A DNA stretch of 64,000 bases from Tichowtungia aerotolerans (GTDB taxonomy: Bacteria; Verrucomicrobiota; Kiritimatiellia; Kiritimatiellales; Tichowtungiaceae): the NCBI RefSeq assembly GCF_009905215.1, contig NZ_CP047593.1, forward strand, positions 558,001 through 622,000. The letters run 5' to 3'. The translations under genes were made by a program, and so were the position numbers. How positions within the stretch are numbered: the first letter of the stretch is position 1; the number at the start of each line of letters is the position of its first letter. Below are positions 12,721 through 29,707 of the stretch, in pieces. The notes beneath the pieces are model-generated. The model had not been told where the DNA came from, ran no database searches, and worked only from the letters and a program-made list of their open reading frames with translations.

Positions 12721-14438
12721 GATTTTTCACTCCGGCGCAAATGAACAACGAAAGCGGCGCTGAGAATCAGCAAAAGTGTAGCCATGGCGGCCAATGGTTT
12801 CCATTGGTCGCCGCTCAAGGGAATCAGAATGAGCATGGCAAGCCCCAGAATACCGAGGCTGCCCGCCATCACCTGCGACGGCAGACGCGACGAGCTCGCC
12901 GGCGGCGGCGCATCGTCGACCACCGCAGCGGCGGTGGCCTCCTGCAAGCGCTGCCATTCCGGACAATGCGATGTGCCTCGGAGTTCCGCAACCAGCAGAA
13001 TCAGCAGCGGCACAAGAACCCCGACAAACAGGTCGCTCTCACGCGGATGGGTTGAAACATATTCAACCATTCCCGATAGCGCCTCCGTTCCACTGAACCA
13101 TCCGTCCGCAGAAAACCCGAACTTCAGCAGCACACCGGCTCCCACACCGCCGACGAGGGTTGCCCAAACCACGCCGGCTCCGATCCGGTTGGAAAAGAGC
13201 GCCCAGATGGTCGGAAGCAGGATGGCAGGACCGATCAGGCTGCCAACCAGAATAACGATATCGCGGTAGCTTCCAAGCCTTGGAAGAATCAGCGCGCCTG
13301 CCAAAATGTAGATACCGATCAGCACAGTAAAAATCCGCCCGGCCCGCAGCGTCTGGGCGTCGGTAGCATCGGGCCGCAGGCGGCGGTAGACATCATCGGT
13401 CAGCACCCCGGCAAATACATTGAGTACACTGGACAGCGAGCTGGCGGTGGCCGAAAACATGGCGGCAACCATCATGCCGATCATCCCGACCGGCAGAACA
13501 CTTTTGCAGGCGAGGATATAGGCCTCCTGCGGGTCGGCATCCGGAACCATAGAGCGGTAGATCAGCGGCGGGGCCATCCAGAGAAACGGCGTGACCAGAT
13601 AAAGCCAGCCAAACAAATACATGCCTTTCTTCGCATCCTTTGCAGAAGGCACACAGAGATGTCTCTGAATGAAATGCCACTCGGCACCAAGCTGGAAACA
13701 GTTCACCAGCATCCAGCCGCCCAGCACAAACCAGGAATAGCCGGGCGCGGTCGGCTTCAAAAATCCTTCGGGGACATTGGCGGTAATCTGTTCAAGCCCG
13801 CCCGCCTGCGTCACGATCATCGGCACCACCACCACCACGCACAGGCTGAGCACAATAAACTGAAGCATATCAGTCATCAGCACGGCCCAAAGCCCACCGA
13901 TCATGGTATAACCAACCACAATGGCGGCAAGGATGGCACAGGTCCAGTCGATCGACAGAGCACCCGTTTCCGGATTCTGCAGAAAATGTCCGTCCGGCAG
14001 CGGCATGAGCGGACAGAGCATCACAGCCAGCGCATACAGCGACAGCCCGGACATGGCCAGATAAATGCCGCGGTAGACTGTGTAGAAATTAAACGCCTTT
14101 TTGCTGAAGCGTACATTTACAAATTCGGCGGCCGTCGACAGGTTGGTGTCATGCCACTTGCCGGCAAAAAAGCGACCAGCCAGAAAGGCGGCAATGCCGT
14201 ACATCGAACAGATGACGGCCCCGACCAGTCCAAACTCATAGGTAATGCCACCCCACACGACGAAAGTGCCGGCCGAAAACATCGTCATATAGGCCGAAAC
14301 GCCTGACAGCCACCACGGCGAGGAGCGACCCGCCACAAACATGTCCGAAGCGTTCTTATTCGAACGTGCAAAAATAACTCCGACGGCCAGCAGTCCGGCA
14401 CAGTACAATCCAATGATGACCCAATCTATACCTGTCAT
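12717..14438 (-). CDS. sodium:solute symporter (SSS family)
   Basis: An inner-membrane Na+-coupled transporter of the SSS/SGLT family, about 573 residues with roughly 13 hydrophobic segments. Early motifs GVIFARSNKNASDMFVAGRS and SAYMTMFSAGTFV are typical of this family. The substrate cannot be deduced, but placement between a sulfatase and UroD-like genes points to a desulfated sugar from the polysaccharide. The start is the ATG at 14438 with GAGG five bases upstream; the longer frame to 14474 overlaps the end of the sulfatase gene. The stop codon overlaps the start of the uroD relic (ATGA). A perfect TTCCAA-N3-TTGGAA palindrome lies inside at 13271. Confidence 0.9.
   Translation of the reverse strand: MTGIDWVIIGLYCAGLLAVGVIFARSNKNASDMFVAGRSSPWWLSGVSAYMTMFSAGTFVVWGGITYEFGLVGAVICSMYGIAAFLAGRFFAGKWHDTNLSTAAEFVNVRFSKKAFNFYTVYRGIYLAMSGLSLYALAVMLCPLMPLPDGHFLQNPETGALSIDWTCAILAAIVVGYTMIGGLWAVLMTDMLQFIVLSLCVVVVVPMIVTQAGGLEQITANVPEGFLKPTAPGYSWFVLGGWMLVNCFQLGAEWHFIQRHLCVPSAKDAKKGMYLFGWLYLVTPFLWMAPPLIYRSMVPDADPQEAYILACKSVLPVGMIGMMVAAMFSATASSLSSVLNVFAGVLTDDVYRRLRPDATDAQTLRAGRIFTVLIGIYILAGALILPRLGSYRDIVILVGSLIGPAILLPTIWALFSNRIGAGVVWATLVGGVGAGVLLKFGFSADGWFSGTEALSGMVEYVSTHPRESDLFVGVLVPLLILLVAELRGTSHCPEWQRLQEATAAAVVDDAPPPASSSRLPSQVMAGSLGILGLAMLILIPLSGDQWKPLAAMATLLLILSAAFVVHLRRSEKS
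13271..13285. repeat. perfect TTCCAA-N3-TTGGAA palindrome inside symporter gene
   Basis: TTCCAA GCC TTGGAA within the symporter coding sequence. Confidence 0.9.
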
Positions 14439-18549: not shown

Positions 18550-20515
18550 TTATTCCTGCCCCTGAAGATCTGCACGCAAAGTTGCAATTTTTGCATTCCA
18601 CTTGAAACCCGGGGTTTCCAGGATGAATGTAAAGGTGTTATCACCAGATTTCAGAACACCGACCGGGAGTTCAAAGTGAACCGGTGCGAATAGATCAACG
18701 ATCCCCTCCGTGTAGCCAAGGTCGACGGAGTTCGTATATCCATTCACCCCAACCGTAAGGACCGTGCCCGCCACAAAGCCTTTCGGTGCAGAGATGGAGG
18801 GAACCAGAACGGCATCCCCGGCAGCGTCCGGAATGGAGATCGTCAGCTCGGCATCCTGCTGATAAATATCCACCAGTGTCTGGTTTGAATAAAAACGTTC
18901 GCTGACCATTTTCTTCGACGGCTTTTCTGTCACCAGCGGGAACTGAACAATCGCAACTTCCTCGGCGGCCAGCGTCAGAGCCGACGGATCGACTTTTTCC
19001 AATGCCTGGAAATCCATGCGCCATCGTCCATTCGTTTTTTGCGTGTATTCCTGCGGCACCGCCCCTTCCCAGCGCATGCGGGCGATGCGCGCCTCAGGAA
19101 TTCCGGCATCCAGATTCAGATCGAGCGAACGCGGCAGGGCGTTGTGCAGCAAAATCTGCAGCTCATCGCCCTTGCGAACGGCGATGGCATAAAGCCCCTG
19201 CCGCTCGGCTTCGGTCAACTGCTGCCACTCACAGACCACCCGTTCACCATCCAAGCCTTGGAAAAATTTGTAGAAACCAAGCAGCGGAGTCGCAATGACC
19301 GACGGATCTGCCGGGTCCTCGGGACGGGTATACAGGGCCTGTCCGCGTTGACGGGCATAGCCAGCGTCGCCCCACGGCAGAATAAACGGAACGGTCAGCT
19401 GCACCTCCGGCCGATCCATAAAGTTCATCCACATGCGGGTCACCGTTGTGCCGTAAAGGTAATAGAGATAATCGCCGGCCCTCGGCCCCTTCTGCGGGGT
19501 GATCCCCTGCCTTCCGAACTCGGATATGATAACCGGCAGCGACGGAGCGCTCCATGTCGCCTGATGATGCGCATAGACCAGATCGAGGTAAGCCTCCGCC
19601 TTGCCGAAATCCCAAATGTAGGGGTTTCCGTTTTTCAGGCCCTCATAAAGGTTGGGCGTTGGAAGCTTTTTTTTCTGATCAAACGAAGGAGACTCCTTGG
19701 AATAGGCCCAGTATTCCTTGCTGTAGAGATGGAAGTCATAAGCCCCGAGCACATCGCCTGCGGTTTCAATGTATTTGCGCTCCCACCCCGAATGGGTCCA
19801 GCGTTTCCAGTCGCCCTTTGGGTGTCCCCACGCCGTGCAGGGGCCCGCAATTTTACTTCGGGATATTTGCCTTTGAGTGCCAATGCCATTTTGCGTCCGA
19901 AGTTGGCGTGATCCTGAACCGGCGACGGCGTATTTTTCCAGCACCCATCCGGCTCATTGATCGGTGAAAACCAGGATGGCAGGGGGCCGCCGCCCTGGCG
20001 GATGACATCCAGCCAGCGATCAATCAGTTCAATGCAGAAATCAAAGTCGTCCGGATGAACCCCTTTGCGGTGGCTGGTTTTCATCGTTGAATCCACCTCG
20101 CCCAAAGCCGTTTCGTCCGAAGTTTTCGCAGGCTCCGGATAGTTGCCGCCGGCCATGGGTGTGGAGCACCCGGATAACGCTTGGCGGCCTTGCGGTAGAA
20201 CGCCGCATATTTCTTAAACTGATCCTTGAGCTCCGGGCTCCAGCCCGCCCGCAGGGAATCGCCGCCATTATAGGCGAGATAAGGCCCTGTGCCGCGGCCC
20301 GGAGCAATGCGCAGCGCATTCAGCTCGGCGGCCTGCTCATCGCTGTACATGCCGGGAATGTGATAGGTTCGGAAATAGCGATCCCGGCTGATATCAGAAA
20401 CCGCATGCGGACCCGCGCGCAGTTCGAGCGCAACATCCGGATACACACGAAGCGTTTCCGCCTGAACCTGAAAAACGGATGGAAAGATTAACCCAACCAA
20501 TATTTTTTTCATCAT
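18550..20515 (-). pseudogene. clan GH-A (GH86-like) glycoside hydrolase, two frameshifts
   Basis: A gene homologous along its length to the intact protein at 27647-29707 but split over three frames: about 20515-20155, 20155-19853 and 19853-18550. Repairing one missing C near 20155 (CACCC before ATGGCC) and one missing A near 19853 (GTAAAATTG) restores about 655 residues. The restored protein has a signal peptide, the acid/base motif INEPD and the nucleophile motif ISEFGRQ. Both lesions are single-base losses in short homopolymers, and the remaining 430 codons are free of damage. A sequencing or assembly error is therefore as likely as true decay. It sits between a sulfatase gene and the GH16 gene. 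AAGGG precedes the double ATG at 20515. The GH86-like label is from catalytic spacing and overall look. Confidence 0.75.
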
Positions 20516-24321: not shown

Positions 24322-24396
24322 TTCATCTAAAGATTGCACAGACAAACGCAGATCTTCCGAACCTTGGAAAAAAGATCTGTGCCGCAACGCAGTTGC

Positions 24397-24411
24397 TTCC
24401 AAGGGTTGGAA
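24397..24411. repeat. perfect TTCCAA-N3-TTGGAA palindrome
   Basis: TTCCAA GGG TTGGAA, middle one of three clustered copies (two imperfect) just beyond the 3' end of the Avs-like gene. Confidence 0.9.
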
Positions 24412-24474
24412 GAAGCATCGTTCGTTTTTCCAACCATCGGAAAAACAGCATCCGTTTCTATCAGGCTTTACCTT

Positions 24475-26970
24475 TCATCCATCAACTTCTATGGAGGACA
24501 AACACTGGACTTCCTTCCTAGGTTCTTTGGCGCAAACAACAGACATTCTTCGTCTTGCCCACGTATGCCGGCGTTGCTTCTCAGGAATGAACTCGGGACG
24601 CACTTCACGATAAATCTCAGCAAACCAAACGGCCACAGAATCTTCTTTCATCAACAAATCATCTAGTCGGTCGGAATCTATCTGAAGATGCTCCACTGTT
24701 TCTGAAACGCCCAAATCCAATCGCTCAAACGTCGCGACAACCAAACCATCCTTATCCGCAAATTCTCTATAATCTTTCGCCCCATCCCCTCGAACAATGC
24801 CCAGTGATTTAGAGTAGAATGGTGACGGGAAATACAACATCGTTTCACCTCCATCGTGCAACCAATGTGTTTTCGCTGATAAATACCTCAACTCCACCGA
24901 GAACAGGTCTCCTTTGCTATCAAGCGAATCATAAGATTCATCACAGTCGTCTATAGTTTTCACAAATGGTGCCCAACAAACTACCGACGGAGAATGATAA
25001 CAGGCTCCATCAATCCCTGCGCAACGCACATCGCCGACATCACAACGCGGAACTATTGCTCCAGCTAACGCATCACGTTTAAAAATTTCGAACTGAGAAC
25101 GGGGAACCAAAAGACATGTAATTCGCGACATCTGACTAGCTGCAGAATGCGCTTCAACTCCATGAATCCAGGAGCAAATACTTAGCTGCCTACCCGCAGA
25201 AATGACCTTTTCAACCTTTGGCCATTCCGCATTATTTACCCAATCCGTTGATCGTTGGAGTTGGTTATCGCCCTGCGCATGGTATTCCTGCCAGAAATGA
25301 TCAGGAAATCTCGATTCTTTGCCGCTGTCAGGCCCATATTCCACCCCGCGCCTGCCATCAAAGGGATCTGGCATTTCTTCTCCAACATCAGAAAAACACA
25401 TTACCGGTTCGAATTCCGCATTACAGAAATCCTTTATTGGCAACCTGTCAGCAAAATCACCAGCAACCTCATTTATCGCTAACCATATATATTTCTCTGC
25501 AAATGAAGCAATGGGACTGCGAGCACCATGGGTTGCTGGATAATGCTCACGAGAAATCGATACATCCGCCCCGAGGATTTCTCCCTCTTCACCACCATTA
25601 GGTTTTCCATAAAACACATCGGCATCCCACCCCTGCGAATAGACAAAATCCAAGATCAAGCCATCCCTTAGCTGCTCGGGAGTCAGCACATCCAACCCAT
25701 ATATCTTCTTATAATTATCCATCAAAGATTCAGCCTCTGGCGAATACTCCGTTTCGTATTTCATGTGTACGGCTTTGACAACATCTAGATCTAGTTCATT
25801 TTCTACATCTTGGTTTTCACTCGGAATCTCTTCATCAAGTATTTTATTAGATATCGGACGATAATCCCTCGAAGAGGCATTCCAAATGGATTCACGTTTT
25901 CTTCGAGCAGCCTCCATTTGAGCCCATAACACCTCTACCTTTTCATACGCTTTTTCTTCGAGATCAATACGCCTTTCGACGACGGCCTTGGCAACTTCAC
26001 TCTTGGGATACCTCACCTCATCCTCAGAACAAAAATTATTTTTGCGAATTTGTTCAAAAAAAAGCCTTGAGGCTTGCTTGACCACATACCGCTCAAGGTC
26101 TCCACTTATTGGATTTTCAGACCACCCTTCTGGTTTTTTCATGTATGCCAATAATTGTGACCCGGCCTGATAGGGCGGCCGAGCTCTTCCAACCTGACTT
26201 TCTGAAATCAAATCATATGCATAGGCTCTTTCAACGACAATGCGTGCGGCATGTCGGCAAACTGAATTCCTTGTCGAGCAAGTCGGGGATTCCGAGAAGA
26301 ACATCCGAGAACACTGAGCCGACAATGCATGTAGCCCATCTCTATCTTCCGTACAACAGGCGGCTCCAACAGCAGCCGTTAAAATACTTTCAAGAATCTG
26401 ATAATCATTACATGACTCCAGCTCCGACAGAAGAATCGCCATCTCTTTAGGATTCAAGCTGCCCCAAATAGCCAGTTGGGTTCTAGCGGCCCGAACACGC
26501 TTGGCAACAACAGAGGAACAACTCCACGCCAAAAGAAGAGGCATATCCCCCCAGAAAATGAACTCAATGTTGTTATAGGAGGCATCAAACTCTTCCCATC
26601 GATCCACCTGGGATTTCCCTTTGTTTCCTGCTCCTCTGGATGCTTGTAGCTCAAGAGGCATACATACAATGTATCGAGTCAAGGTTGGATGGCGTTGCGT
26701 TGCACTTTTGATCGACTTATGAAGTTGCTTAACCTGCTTATCATCAAATTTTTCACGAAACCACTTTGCCTGAAGGCCAATAACAGATCCGTCCTTATGA
26801 CGCGCAAAAGCTTCCACCCCGCCATCGCCACCTTTTCCGTCAGTATAAATGATTCGCTCTATATCCTCACCATAAGTGTAGCTACACCATTTAGAGAACA
26901 AATGTCGCCCAAGTGCCTCAAATGCCTTAGTACAATCTTCGTGTCGTGTTTTAAAATCTGCCCATTCCAT
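24475..26970 (-). CDS. Avs-like protein with N-terminal PD-(D/E)XK nuclease domain, candidate defence gene
   Basis: An 831-residue protein with no signal peptide. Residues 1-170 look like the Mrr/DUF4297-type nuclease found at the N-terminus of Avs defence ATPases: FEALGRHLF at 17-25, GGDGGVEAF at 47-55 (Asp49, Glu53), LQAKWF at 66-71 (Gln67, Lys69), then KSIKSATQRHP. A segment near 495-515 (EKYIWLAINEVAGDFADRLP) recalls the C-terminal part of large Avs/STAND-like ATP-binding proteins. I see no convincing STAND NTPase between these parts and the protein is about half the usual Avs length. The gene is visibly AT-richer than its neighbours and stands alone, bounded by repeats, in the middle of a polysaccharide locus, which suggests acquisition by transfer. 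Antiphage function is inference. Confidence 0.55.
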   Translation of the reverse strand: MEWADFKTRHEDCTKAFEALGRHLFSKWCSYTYGEDIERIIYTDGKGGDGGVEAFARHKDGSVIGLQAKWFREKFDDKQVKQLHKSIKSATQRHPTLTRYIVCMPLELQASRGAGNKGKSQVDRWEEFDASYNNIEFIFWGDMPLLLAWSCSSVVAKRVRAARTQLAIWGSLNPKEMAILLSELESCNDYQILESILTAAVGAACCTEDRDGLHALSAQCSRMFFSESPTCSTRNSVCRHAARIVVERAYAYDLISESQVGRARPPYQAGSQLLAYMKKPEGWSENPISGDLERYVVKQASRLFFEQIRKNNFCSEDEVRYPKSEVAKAVVERRIDLEEKAYEKVEVLWAQMEAARRKRESIWNASSRDYRPISNKILDEEIPSENQDVENELDLDVVKAVHMKYETEYSPEAESLMDNYKKIYGLDVLTPEQLRDGLILDFVYSQGWDADVFYGKPNGGEEGEILGADVSISREHYPATHGARSPIASFAEKYIWLAINEVAGDFADRLPIKDFCNAEFEPVMCFSDVGEEMPDPFDGRRGVEYGPDSGKESRFPDHFWQEYHAQGDNQLQRSTDWVNNAEWPKVEKVISAGRQLSICSWIHGVEAHSAASQMSRITCLLVPRSQFEIFKRDALAGAIVPRCDVGDVRCAGIDGACYHSPSVVCWAPFVKTIDDCDESYDSLDSKGDLFSVELRYLSAKTHWLHDGGETMLYFPSPFYSKSLGIVRGDGAKDYREFADKDGLVVATFERLDLGVSETVEHLQIDSDRLDDLLMKEDSVAVWFAEIYREVRPEFIPEKQRRHTWARRRMSVVCAKEPRKEVQCLSSIEVDG

Positions 26971-27380
26971 AAAATATCTACCTGATAATCGTCACCACTA
27001 AACTAAATTCTAATCCACCCGTACATTCAGTCCGTACCTCATCACGCACAGCTGATACCCATTACTCTCACTCCCTGACAATATGCGGGTGATGGTATAA
27101 GGTTTTTCTGGATGCTGAAAGAACAAGACCTGAAAGATTTTACAGGAATGTTCCCTGCGCGCAAAGCGATAGAAAAAGGTGCTGTCCGGCTGTTGGACTA
27201 CCTGCAAGACGGCTTCCCCGGGACGGACTGCCCGCCCGTCCCGTCAAAAACGGCCCTGCACCGATCCGCGTCTTTTTGCGCTACTATCTGTCATCTTTTT
27301 GTTTTCTTGGCACGTTTTGTCTCTCGCCTGTTCGCTGTGCTCACTCAAGCCGCAAAGTCGCCAAGTTTGCTAAATGGATT

Positions 27381-27443: not shown

Positions 27444-27458
27444 TTCCAAGGTTTGGAA
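27444..27458. repeat. perfect TTCCAA-N3-TTGGAA palindrome
   Basis: TTCCAA GGT TTGGAA, followed 28 bp later by a copy with one mismatch. Confidence 0.9.
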
Positions 27459-27510
27459 GAAGGCTGAGCCTTCACCCCATCGAGTTTTCAAGGGTTGGAA
27501 AATCCGTCTG

Positions 27511-27547: not shown

Positions 27548-27646
27548 CCTGAATAATCGGCACCTGTTTTAATGACTCAAATACAAAAAGAACAGTCCAG
27601 CTCGACAAGCGTTACTGCTAAACTGAGCATGCCGCGAGAGGAAATT

Positions 27647-29707
27647 ATGAATAGAAAAACCAAACTCTGCACATTCACTCTGAGCCTGTGGGCCGTCATC
27701 TGTTTCGCAATAACAGCTGAAGTCATTGAGGCCGCCTCATCGACTGTTCCTAATGGGGTACGCATGCTGACGGCGAAGGTGGATCCGTTGACTGAAGTTA
27801 GTATTCAGGTTGGCCCTCATCAGCGCAGTGTTCTGGAACGCGAAAGATATTTTGTTGTTTACCATCCTCCGGGCCATTACAGCGATGAACGGGCGGCAGA
27901 ATTAAAGAGTATTAATGTGCTGCCCGCTCGCGGGACCGGCCCGTACTATCCGACGTTTGGGCTGCCTGAGCATCATGATGAAGGCGCGGACGAAAAGAGT
28001 GTCAATCAAAGCTGGGTCAAACGGTATCTCAGGGCAAAGGAGCGGTACGGAAAGACACCTCATGCCTTGGCTGGCGGCATGCTCGGCCCTGAAATCAATG
28101 CTTCCCAGCACAAATCCTCCGCAAAAAAAAGCGGTACGGAAGCAACGATGCAGGTGAAATACTCCAAAGCGATTCGCAGCGATGCGTATGACAAGGCAGC
28201 CCAAAAGCTGCTGTCCTGGGTCAGGACACTTCGGGCGGCCGGGGCCTCAATGCCAACCTGGTATACGGCGATTAACGAGCCGGACGCATCCTGGAAGGGG
28301 ACGGAGAATCCGAATGTCGATCACGCCCGCTACACGCGGCATCTTGCCAAAGTTTTTGCGGCGGCAGAGCCGGAAATCAAAATTGCAGGGCCGTGTTCGT
28401 CCTGGCCTTACCCGCAACCCAACTGGGCCCGCTGGCGTGATGACGGCACGGAGAAAGCGTTTATCGATATCGCAGGCGATGTTGTCGGCACCTACGATTT
28501 TCATTTTTACAGTAAGGGCTACTGGGCGGACGACCGGAAGCCGAAGCTCCGTCAGCCGCACCCCAGTCTGGTTCTGGGACAGTATAACGGCAATCAGAAC
28601 GTGTGGGACTATGGACGGATGGAGGCCTATCTCGATCTGATTGCGGCGTACCATCAACATCGCTGGAAAACACCGCCGAAAGAAGTGATCATCAGCGAGT
28701 TCGGGCGCCAGGCAGTTATGCCGCAACTAGGCCCGTGGGAAAATGAATTCAAAGAGTGGCTGTATATGACCACCGTCAACCGGATCTGGATGGGGTTGAT
28801 TGACCGGGCGGAGGTTTCTTTGGCTGTTCCATTTATTCTGGCGGAATCGGATCACAATTATGGACCGAAACGCGGACAGACAATGTATACGCGCCCGAAC
28901 GCCCCTGAAGATCTTAGCCTGAAGCGGACACGTTTTTTTGACTTCTACGGCTTTTATGACCAGCTGCACGGAACCCGGGTGGCAACATCTGTTCAGGGCG
29001 CGAAGCCGAACGAGGATTGCCTCCGAACTCTTTCTTTCAGGGCCGGCCGCATGCTTTATATCTGGCTGCATAATCCGTCGGCCATTGCTGGAGAGCCTGT
29101 CGGAGTCGCTTTGGATATCTCCGGTGCGACCCGGAACGATTTTAAAAAAGCCCGCATTCGCCGGATGTTCTGGGACGGCCCGATCCCCAAACGGCACTCC
29201 GATTCAGACGTCGAGGGGACGCTAAGGATTGATCGCCAATTTGAACCCTTCGACTTAAGCTCGCCGCTTGTTTTACAGGGCGAAGAAACCGTCATTCTGG
29301 AAGTGCCCTTATCGGATCTCGCTGGACATGAGCGCGTTCAATCTGTGCGGCAGACTTTCTTTGCCGAAAATGTGATGGTTGATCTGGAGGATAAATCAAC
29401 GGCTCATACAGACGTGGTTCTTCCGGCGCTTGATAGCGTCCAGAAAGTTTCAATTCACTTCGGGCTGGCCCGCGATCAGGGGTTTGATAATGACTTGCGG
29501 CTTGTCATCAACGGGCATCCCGCAGGAATACTTGACCTCTCCAGTTCGAAAGGCATTGCAGCATTCCACCGGCGCATGACTGTGGATGTTGCCCCATCAA
29601 TCCTGAAGGCGGGCAGCAACCGTGTGGAGATTGTTTCAGAAATTCCGCTGCAGGGTGGAACTCCGAAATGGGTCAGCACGGCAATTGATCTGACGCACTC
29701 AAAATAG
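27647..29707 (+). CDS. clan GH-A glycoside hydrolase, GH86-like (beta-agarase/porphyranase candidate)
   Basis: A secreted enzyme of 686 residues. From the ATG at 27647 (AGAGGA upstream) there is a clear signal peptide (MNRKTKLCTFTLSLWAVICF and on). A TIM barrel follows with acid/base motif INEPD (Glu211) and nucleophile motif ISEFGRQ (Glu351). C-terminal beta-rich regions end the protein. The 140-residue spacing of the two Glu residues and the barrel-plus-two-sandwich layout suit GH86 endo-galactanases, but other clan GH-A families are possible. The frame extends to 27572 without a ribosome site. It is the intact counterpart of the frameshifted gene at 18550-20515. A sulfatase gene follows after 9 bp, so the two are probably co-transcribed from the motif at 27511. 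Confidence 0.75.
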   Translation: MNRKTKLCTFTLSLWAVICFAITAEVIEAASSTVPNGVRMLTAKVDPLTEVSIQVGPHQRSVLERERYFVVYHPPGHYSDERAAELKSINVLPARGTGPYYPTFGLPEHHDEGADEKSVNQSWVKRYLRAKERYGKTPHALAGGMLGPEINASQHKSSAKKSGTEATMQVKYSKAIRSDAYDKAAQKLLSWVRTLRAAGASMPTWYTAINEPDASWKGTENPNVDHARYTRHLAKVFAAAEPEIKIAGPCSSWPYPQPNWARWRDDGTEKAFIDIAGDVVGTYDFHFYSKGYWADDRKPKLRQPHPSLVLGQYNGNQNVWDYGRMEAYLDLIAAYHQHRWKTPPKEVIISEFGRQAVMPQLGPWENEFKEWLYMTTVNRIWMGLIDRAEVSLAVPFILAESDHNYGPKRGQTMYTRPNAPEDLSLKRTRFFDFYGFYDQLHGTRVATSVQGAKPNEDCLRTLSFRAGRMLYIWLHNPSAIAGEPVGVALDISGATRNDFKKARIRRMFWDGPIPKRHSDSDVEGTLRIDRQFEPFDLSSPLVLQGEETVILEVPLSDLAGHERVQSVRQTFFAENVMVDLEDKSTAHTDVVLPALDSVQKVSIHFGLARDQGFDNDLRLVINGHPAGILDLSSSKGIAAFHRRMTVDVAPSILKAGSNRVEIVSEIPLQGGTPKWVSTAIDLTHSK

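Follow-up and report, generated by a model that had tools for sequence, protein, structure and literature searches.

An Avs2-type nuclease gene without its STAND NTPase, probably a deletion relic

The gene at 24475..26970 on the minus strand of the window (the whole 64,000-nucleotide stretch of the Tichowtungia aerotolerans genome that was analysed) encodes an Avs2-type protein of 831 residues without the STAND NTPase. Two modules are present, a nuclease and a sensor-side region; the part between them is missing, the two halves have a common ancestry, and the position of the join can be located. There is good support for regarding the gene as a deletion derivative of Avs2. It is probably an acquired Avs2 whose NTPase was lost by one in-frame deletion, leaving a defective and harmless relic that gives no triggered defence. 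The mechanism of the deletion and its effect are what we infer from these features.

The Avs proteins that have been studied bind a phage protein with their sensor; the assembly that activates the N-terminal effector is driven by the nucleotide-bound NTPase. STAND proteins carry this central NTPase between an N-terminal effector and a C-terminal sensor, and nuclease action of Avs1-4 follows recognition of a phage protein (PMC12931631). Immunity by Avs5 requires the Walker A, Walker B-like and arginine-finger residues (PMC12931631).

Nuclease domain

Residues 1-142 (26545..26970, minus strand) form an N-terminal PD-(D/E)XK (Mrr-like) nuclease domain, as indicated by the PADLOC Avs2 model, the fold search and the tree. 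Residues 2-142 match positions 5-146 of the PADLOC Avs2 model PDLC02164 with E = 9e-38, far beyond chance. In the nuclease tree the domain lies on a long branch inside the core Avs2 subclade (support 100/99). Together these two results identify an Avs2-type nuclease. The Pfam family Mrr_cat gives a sub-threshold match (E 0.006; 17.2 bits against a cut-off of 21).

The motifs GGDGGVEAF and LQAKWF, which the preliminary description assigned to an Avs-type PD-(D/E)XK nuclease, are present where it placed them. The first occupies residues 47-55 (26806..26832, minus strand) and contains D49 and E53. The second occupies residues 66-71 and contains the active-site residues Q67-A-K69-W70 (26761..26772, minus strand). 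Both are read directly from the translation and are conserved in the relatives. The residues D49, E53 and Q67-x-K69 are all intact and follow the PD-(D/E)XK active-site pattern D...(E/Q)xK on the common fold. Also missing from the protein is RIxxLLxELGxEGLRRYWF, the helix at the C-terminal end of the nuclease module in the relatives.

C-terminal region and structure

The Avs2 C-terminal (sensor-side) region comprises residues 144-831 (24478..26541, minus strand) and consists of helical repeats followed by alpha/beta domains. It is matched by positions 779-1482 of the A3 profile, which was built from the relatives, with 823 bits; it is 23-30% identical to 11 relatives. Positions 686-962 of the NCBIfam profile NF041813 match residues 174-454 (E = 3e-8), and profile positions 1-685 are skipped; these two matches identify the helical and alpha/beta sensor side of Avs2. 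The curated NF041813 score of the protein is 32.1 bits, below the cut-off of 1000. The most conserved block of the region, residues 459-496 (GGEEGEILGAD ... SFAEKYIW; 25483..25596, minus strand), is nearly invariant among the relatives. The segment EKYIWLAINEVAGDFADRLP, residues 492-511, which had been recognised earlier as recalling the C-terminal part of large Avs-like ATPases, is indeed a conserved motif of the Avs2 C-region, and FxEKYxW occurs in all aligned family members.

An AlphaFold2 model, made from an 11-row alignment, has a low mean pLDDT of 58.7, with good values in the nuclease and in parts of the C-region. The fold search gives as its best PDB match the terminase-bound Avs3 (8dgc; E 3.7e-4, probability 1.00, 760 columns). 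The global TM-score is low (0.25), so that this likeness is one of modules only, in a low-confidence model. Given the low mean confidence, the fold of the C-region is read no further than the Avs3 match. Avs3 has about 2,000 residues including an NTPase, whereas the window protein has 831 and no NTPase. The next matches are the PD-(D/E)XK enzymes EcoO109I, EndoMS/NucS and Card1, which bears out the nuclease fold proposed for the N-terminus. A profile of the protein's own parts found no relative in the PDB. A profile of the full-length family finds the solved Avs2 structure 9o4e (E = 1.5e-31, profile positions 185-1098), and this match starts in the part that is absent from the window protein.

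Taken by its sequence, the protein belongs precisely to Avs2 (AVAST type 2; PADLOC PDLC02161-02166, NF041813, PDB 9o4e), to which the nuclease and C-region are homologous along their length and in the same N-to-C order. It differs from Avs2 in having no STAND NTPase of about 690 residues, and in being 831 residues long where Avs2 proteins have 1,317-1,576. Avs4 (NF041815) has the Mrr-like nuclease in common with it (residues 2-122, E 3.8e-6). That match is restricted to the nuclease, and the NTPase is again absent from the window protein.

Absence of the NTPase and position of the join

The lack of a convincing NTPase core between the modules, noticed at the outset, is upheld: a Pfam profile search of the protein gives no Walker or AAA match, and the full-length relative from Anabaena gives AAA_22 and NPHP3_N matches. 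The central STAND NTPase with Walker motifs, by which Avs2 is recognised, is absent. The A3 profile matches the protein in two pieces, 1-128 and 779-1482, with nothing between them.

The join lies at residues 140-144 (W-G-D-M-P; 26539..26553, minus strand), where the end of the nuclease, LW[DGN][ED], is fused to the C-region motif WxxxPLLxAW. Residues 137-149 read FIFW-GDM-PLLLAW. As the WxxxPLLxAW spacing at the join equals that of the C-region, the cross-over is placed at the Trp codon. Compared with the window protein, six full-length relatives have 681-749 more residues between LW[DGN][ED] and PLLxAW, and about 690 residues, the NTPase region, separate the same two points in all relatives that have both flanks. 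The plasmid protein WP_015081596.1 of Anabaena sp. 90 (1,517 residues) is an unnamed Avs2 from the same subclade, 36% identical to the window protein in the nuclease and 25% in the C-region. It has an NTPase with the Walker A motif GNPGVGKT and 754 residues between the two join points.

Four of six relatives carry an in-register repeat at the two join sites: TGGGAT in L005 and L068, TGGGA in L011 and CTGGG in L007. No repeat of this kind is present in L009 and L010. The two Trp codons share one phase, so that a deletion between short repeats at this place would automatically be in frame, and the neat join at a domain edge is therefore by itself no evidence of selection. The mechanism proposed here is read from the relatives.

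Origin and constraint

Apart from the nuclease tree, a tree of the C-region places the protein with the cyanobacterial branch of Avs2 (support 98/99), again on a long branch. The GC3 value is 0.39 before the join and 0.40 after it, against 0.57-0.63 in the neighbouring genes. Since both halves lie in the core clade and GC3 is uniform across the join, they derive from one ancestral gene and not from two fused sources; a fusion of two unrelated genes was rejected on these grounds. By composition and phylogeny the whole gene is foreign to its surroundings and of single origin.

Of 73 conserved positions in the C-region, 56 (77%) are retained, against 76% in each of the full-length peers L009 and L010, and the lost positions do not cluster at the join. 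Accelerated decay of the C-region was rejected because its conservation equals that of the full-length peers. Under neutral drift, more than 0.026 substitutions per site should have left a stop codon with 95% probability, and the frame is open throughout. The long branch was thus run almost entirely under ordinary constraint. An open frame and an undecayed C-region point either to a recent deletion or to a product that selection has tolerated or kept, and the sequence data fit both alike.

Relatives and the search for a second copy

The profile search did recover Avs2 relatives, and it recovered none that shares the NTPase-less architecture. The closest relatives that carry both flanks are Avs2 proteins about 1,450-1,530 residues long, from cyanobacteria, Clostridium uliginosum and a Nitrospirales MAG; members cut by contig ends come from a Methanomicrobiales MAG and from a contig binned as Parabacteroides. 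A Walker A motif, G(N/E/D)PG(V/T/A)GKT, lies between the nuclease and the C-region in 10 of 11 core members, the eleventh (L008) being cut by a contig end.

Three cyanobacterial members (L065, L066 and L067) have the Avs2 NTPase and C-region behind a short non-nuclease N-terminus (about 50 residues before the match), and their effector appears to have been replaced or lost. Swapping of the effector therefore occurs in the family, whereas NTPase loss is unseen elsewhere.

The same architecture was not found in independent genomes by about 1,900 genome searches together with species genomes, plasmids, phages and viral contigs. No second NTPase-less copy was present in 289 and 388 genomes of the source phylum (overlapping draws), in 346 genomes of the source class, in 391 of a cyanobacterial order, in 232 of the archaeal class or in 246 of the phylum of the Nitrospirales MAG. 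A pattern scan of 84,980 species genomes, which detects exact pattern matches only, gave none either, nor did plasmids, phages or IMG/VR viral contigs. With zero further cases in the genome, plasmid, phage and viral collections, a conserved family of NTPase-less Avs variants was rejected. The proposal of an undescribed defence variant is not supported either: all relatives have the NTPase, none has the same architecture, and one in-phase short-repeat deletion explains the join.

Broken Avs2 copies are common. L006 and L097/L104 are split, L069 is truncated, L071 has a TGA, L023 is a nuclease remnant, and L099 and L100 are 124-residue remnants; the Avs2 of Nostoc C057 is split and without a nuclease. 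Their frequency raises the prior for a degenerate copy.

Two loci come from the order and the class of the source organism. The remnant in L023 (L023:5241-5747), from a genome of the same order, is a lone 168-residue Avs2-type nuclease ending at a TGA. A 1,485-residue Avs2-like gene from the same class (L024:2980-7437) stands between a large DNA-methyltransferase-like gene and a PglZ-like gene, and may be embedded in a BREX-like locus; its neighbours are named by reading their sequences only.

Proposed history and function

By combining these observations, it is possible to outline the probable history of the gene. An Avs2 gene (nuclease, STAND NTPase, sensor) would have been acquired horizontally. 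A single deletion inside the gene, about 2.1 kb long and bounded by two short repeats that lie in phase around the Trp codons, would then have left an in-frame fusion of nuclease and sensor. With the NTPase gone, the product should be unable to switch the nuclease on, while binding of the trigger is perhaps kept. Since the activating module is missing, the product is most likely inert, in keeping with an intact nuclease active site being tolerated. The relic reading is favoured because no relative with both flanks lacks the NTPase region, both halves have one ancestry, the join fits a short in-register repeat, the architecture occurs once, broken Avs2 copies are frequent, no NTPase is found in trans and Avs5 needs its NTPase residues. 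It is weakened by the fully open frame, the intact active site and a C-region conserved as in full-length peers.

These same three features would be expected of the main rival, a functional minimal Avs that works with no NTP switch. Its C-region would bind a phage protein and exert direct control over the nuclease, through allostery or ligand-templated dimerisation. The join precisely at a domain edge and a plausible ribosome-binding site also speak for such a protein. Its single occurrence speaks against it, as do the in-phase repeat that explains the join without selection, the need for NTP binding in Avs5 (PMC12931631), the loss of the C-terminal helix of the nuclease module and the lack of a promoter-like signal above chance. 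It is thus possible but unlikely, and it is rather improbable that a nuclease fused directly to the Avs2 sensor can detect a phage protein and cut DNA with no nucleotide switch involved. If it does, the STAND module would be dispensable in at least one lineage, and the gene would be a natural test of the need for the STAND NTPase in coupling phage-protein sensing to the nuclease.

The kept and conserved sensor side might also suit a decoy or brake, which would not fire itself and would bind either the phage trigger or a full-length Avs2 present in the same cell. A decoy has no need of an intact nuclease active site, and a search for a second Avs2 in the source genome found none, making this very improbable. 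Nor is the suggestion of a partner elsewhere borne out, as searches of the same genome (3.88 Mb) for an NTPase homologue gave none, one of them being without a positive control.

If the gene is the non-functional relic favoured here, it would illustrate a route by which a large Avs gene decays, through one in-phase short-repeat deletion. An open, annotatable 'mini-Avs' of this kind could pass for a new system in a defence catalogue; it should not be entered as a working Avs2, because the NTPase was searched for and is absent.

Gene and locus

Read directly, the 831-residue frame starts with ATG and has zero internal stops. A putative ribosome-binding site, AGGTAG (26978..26983, minus strand), lies 7 nucleotides before the ATG. 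A promoter-like signal above chance was not found for the gene. The description of a lone AT-rich gene within a sugar locus holds: the gene has 45-46% GC against 53-58%, and it stands alone between sulfatase and carbohydrate genes. Homologues about 50% identical to the neighbouring sulfatase occur elsewhere in the same order; their surroundings are not syntenic, so that no empty site could be read from them.

The genome might instead contain a full-length Avs2 from which about 2.1 kb was lost in assembly. Small assembly errors are conceivable, as the paralogue at 18.6-20.5 kb is frame-broken. The end repeats in the relatives, at about 6 nucleotides, are far too short to collapse an assembly, however, and the genome is a single contig of 3.88 Mb, 98.4% complete, with no leftover NTPase sequence and with the reading frame of the gene preserved. 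Such an artefact is scarcely to be expected, and a genuine deletion is the preferred reading.

Palindromes of the form TTCCAANNNTTGGAA have 29 matches in the window on both strands, where 0.6 are expected (for example at 13271, 24355-24442, 27444-27500, 42519, 43079 and 52412), with some of them clustered to either side of the Avs2 gene. They were considered as the ends of a mobile element and rejected, being dispersed through the window and not specific to the gene.

The paralogue mentioned above (18610-20467, minus strand) is 33-39% identical to the carbohydrate gene at 27572-29707 and is spread over three frames; it is either a frame-broken copy or one that carries indel errors of the assembly.
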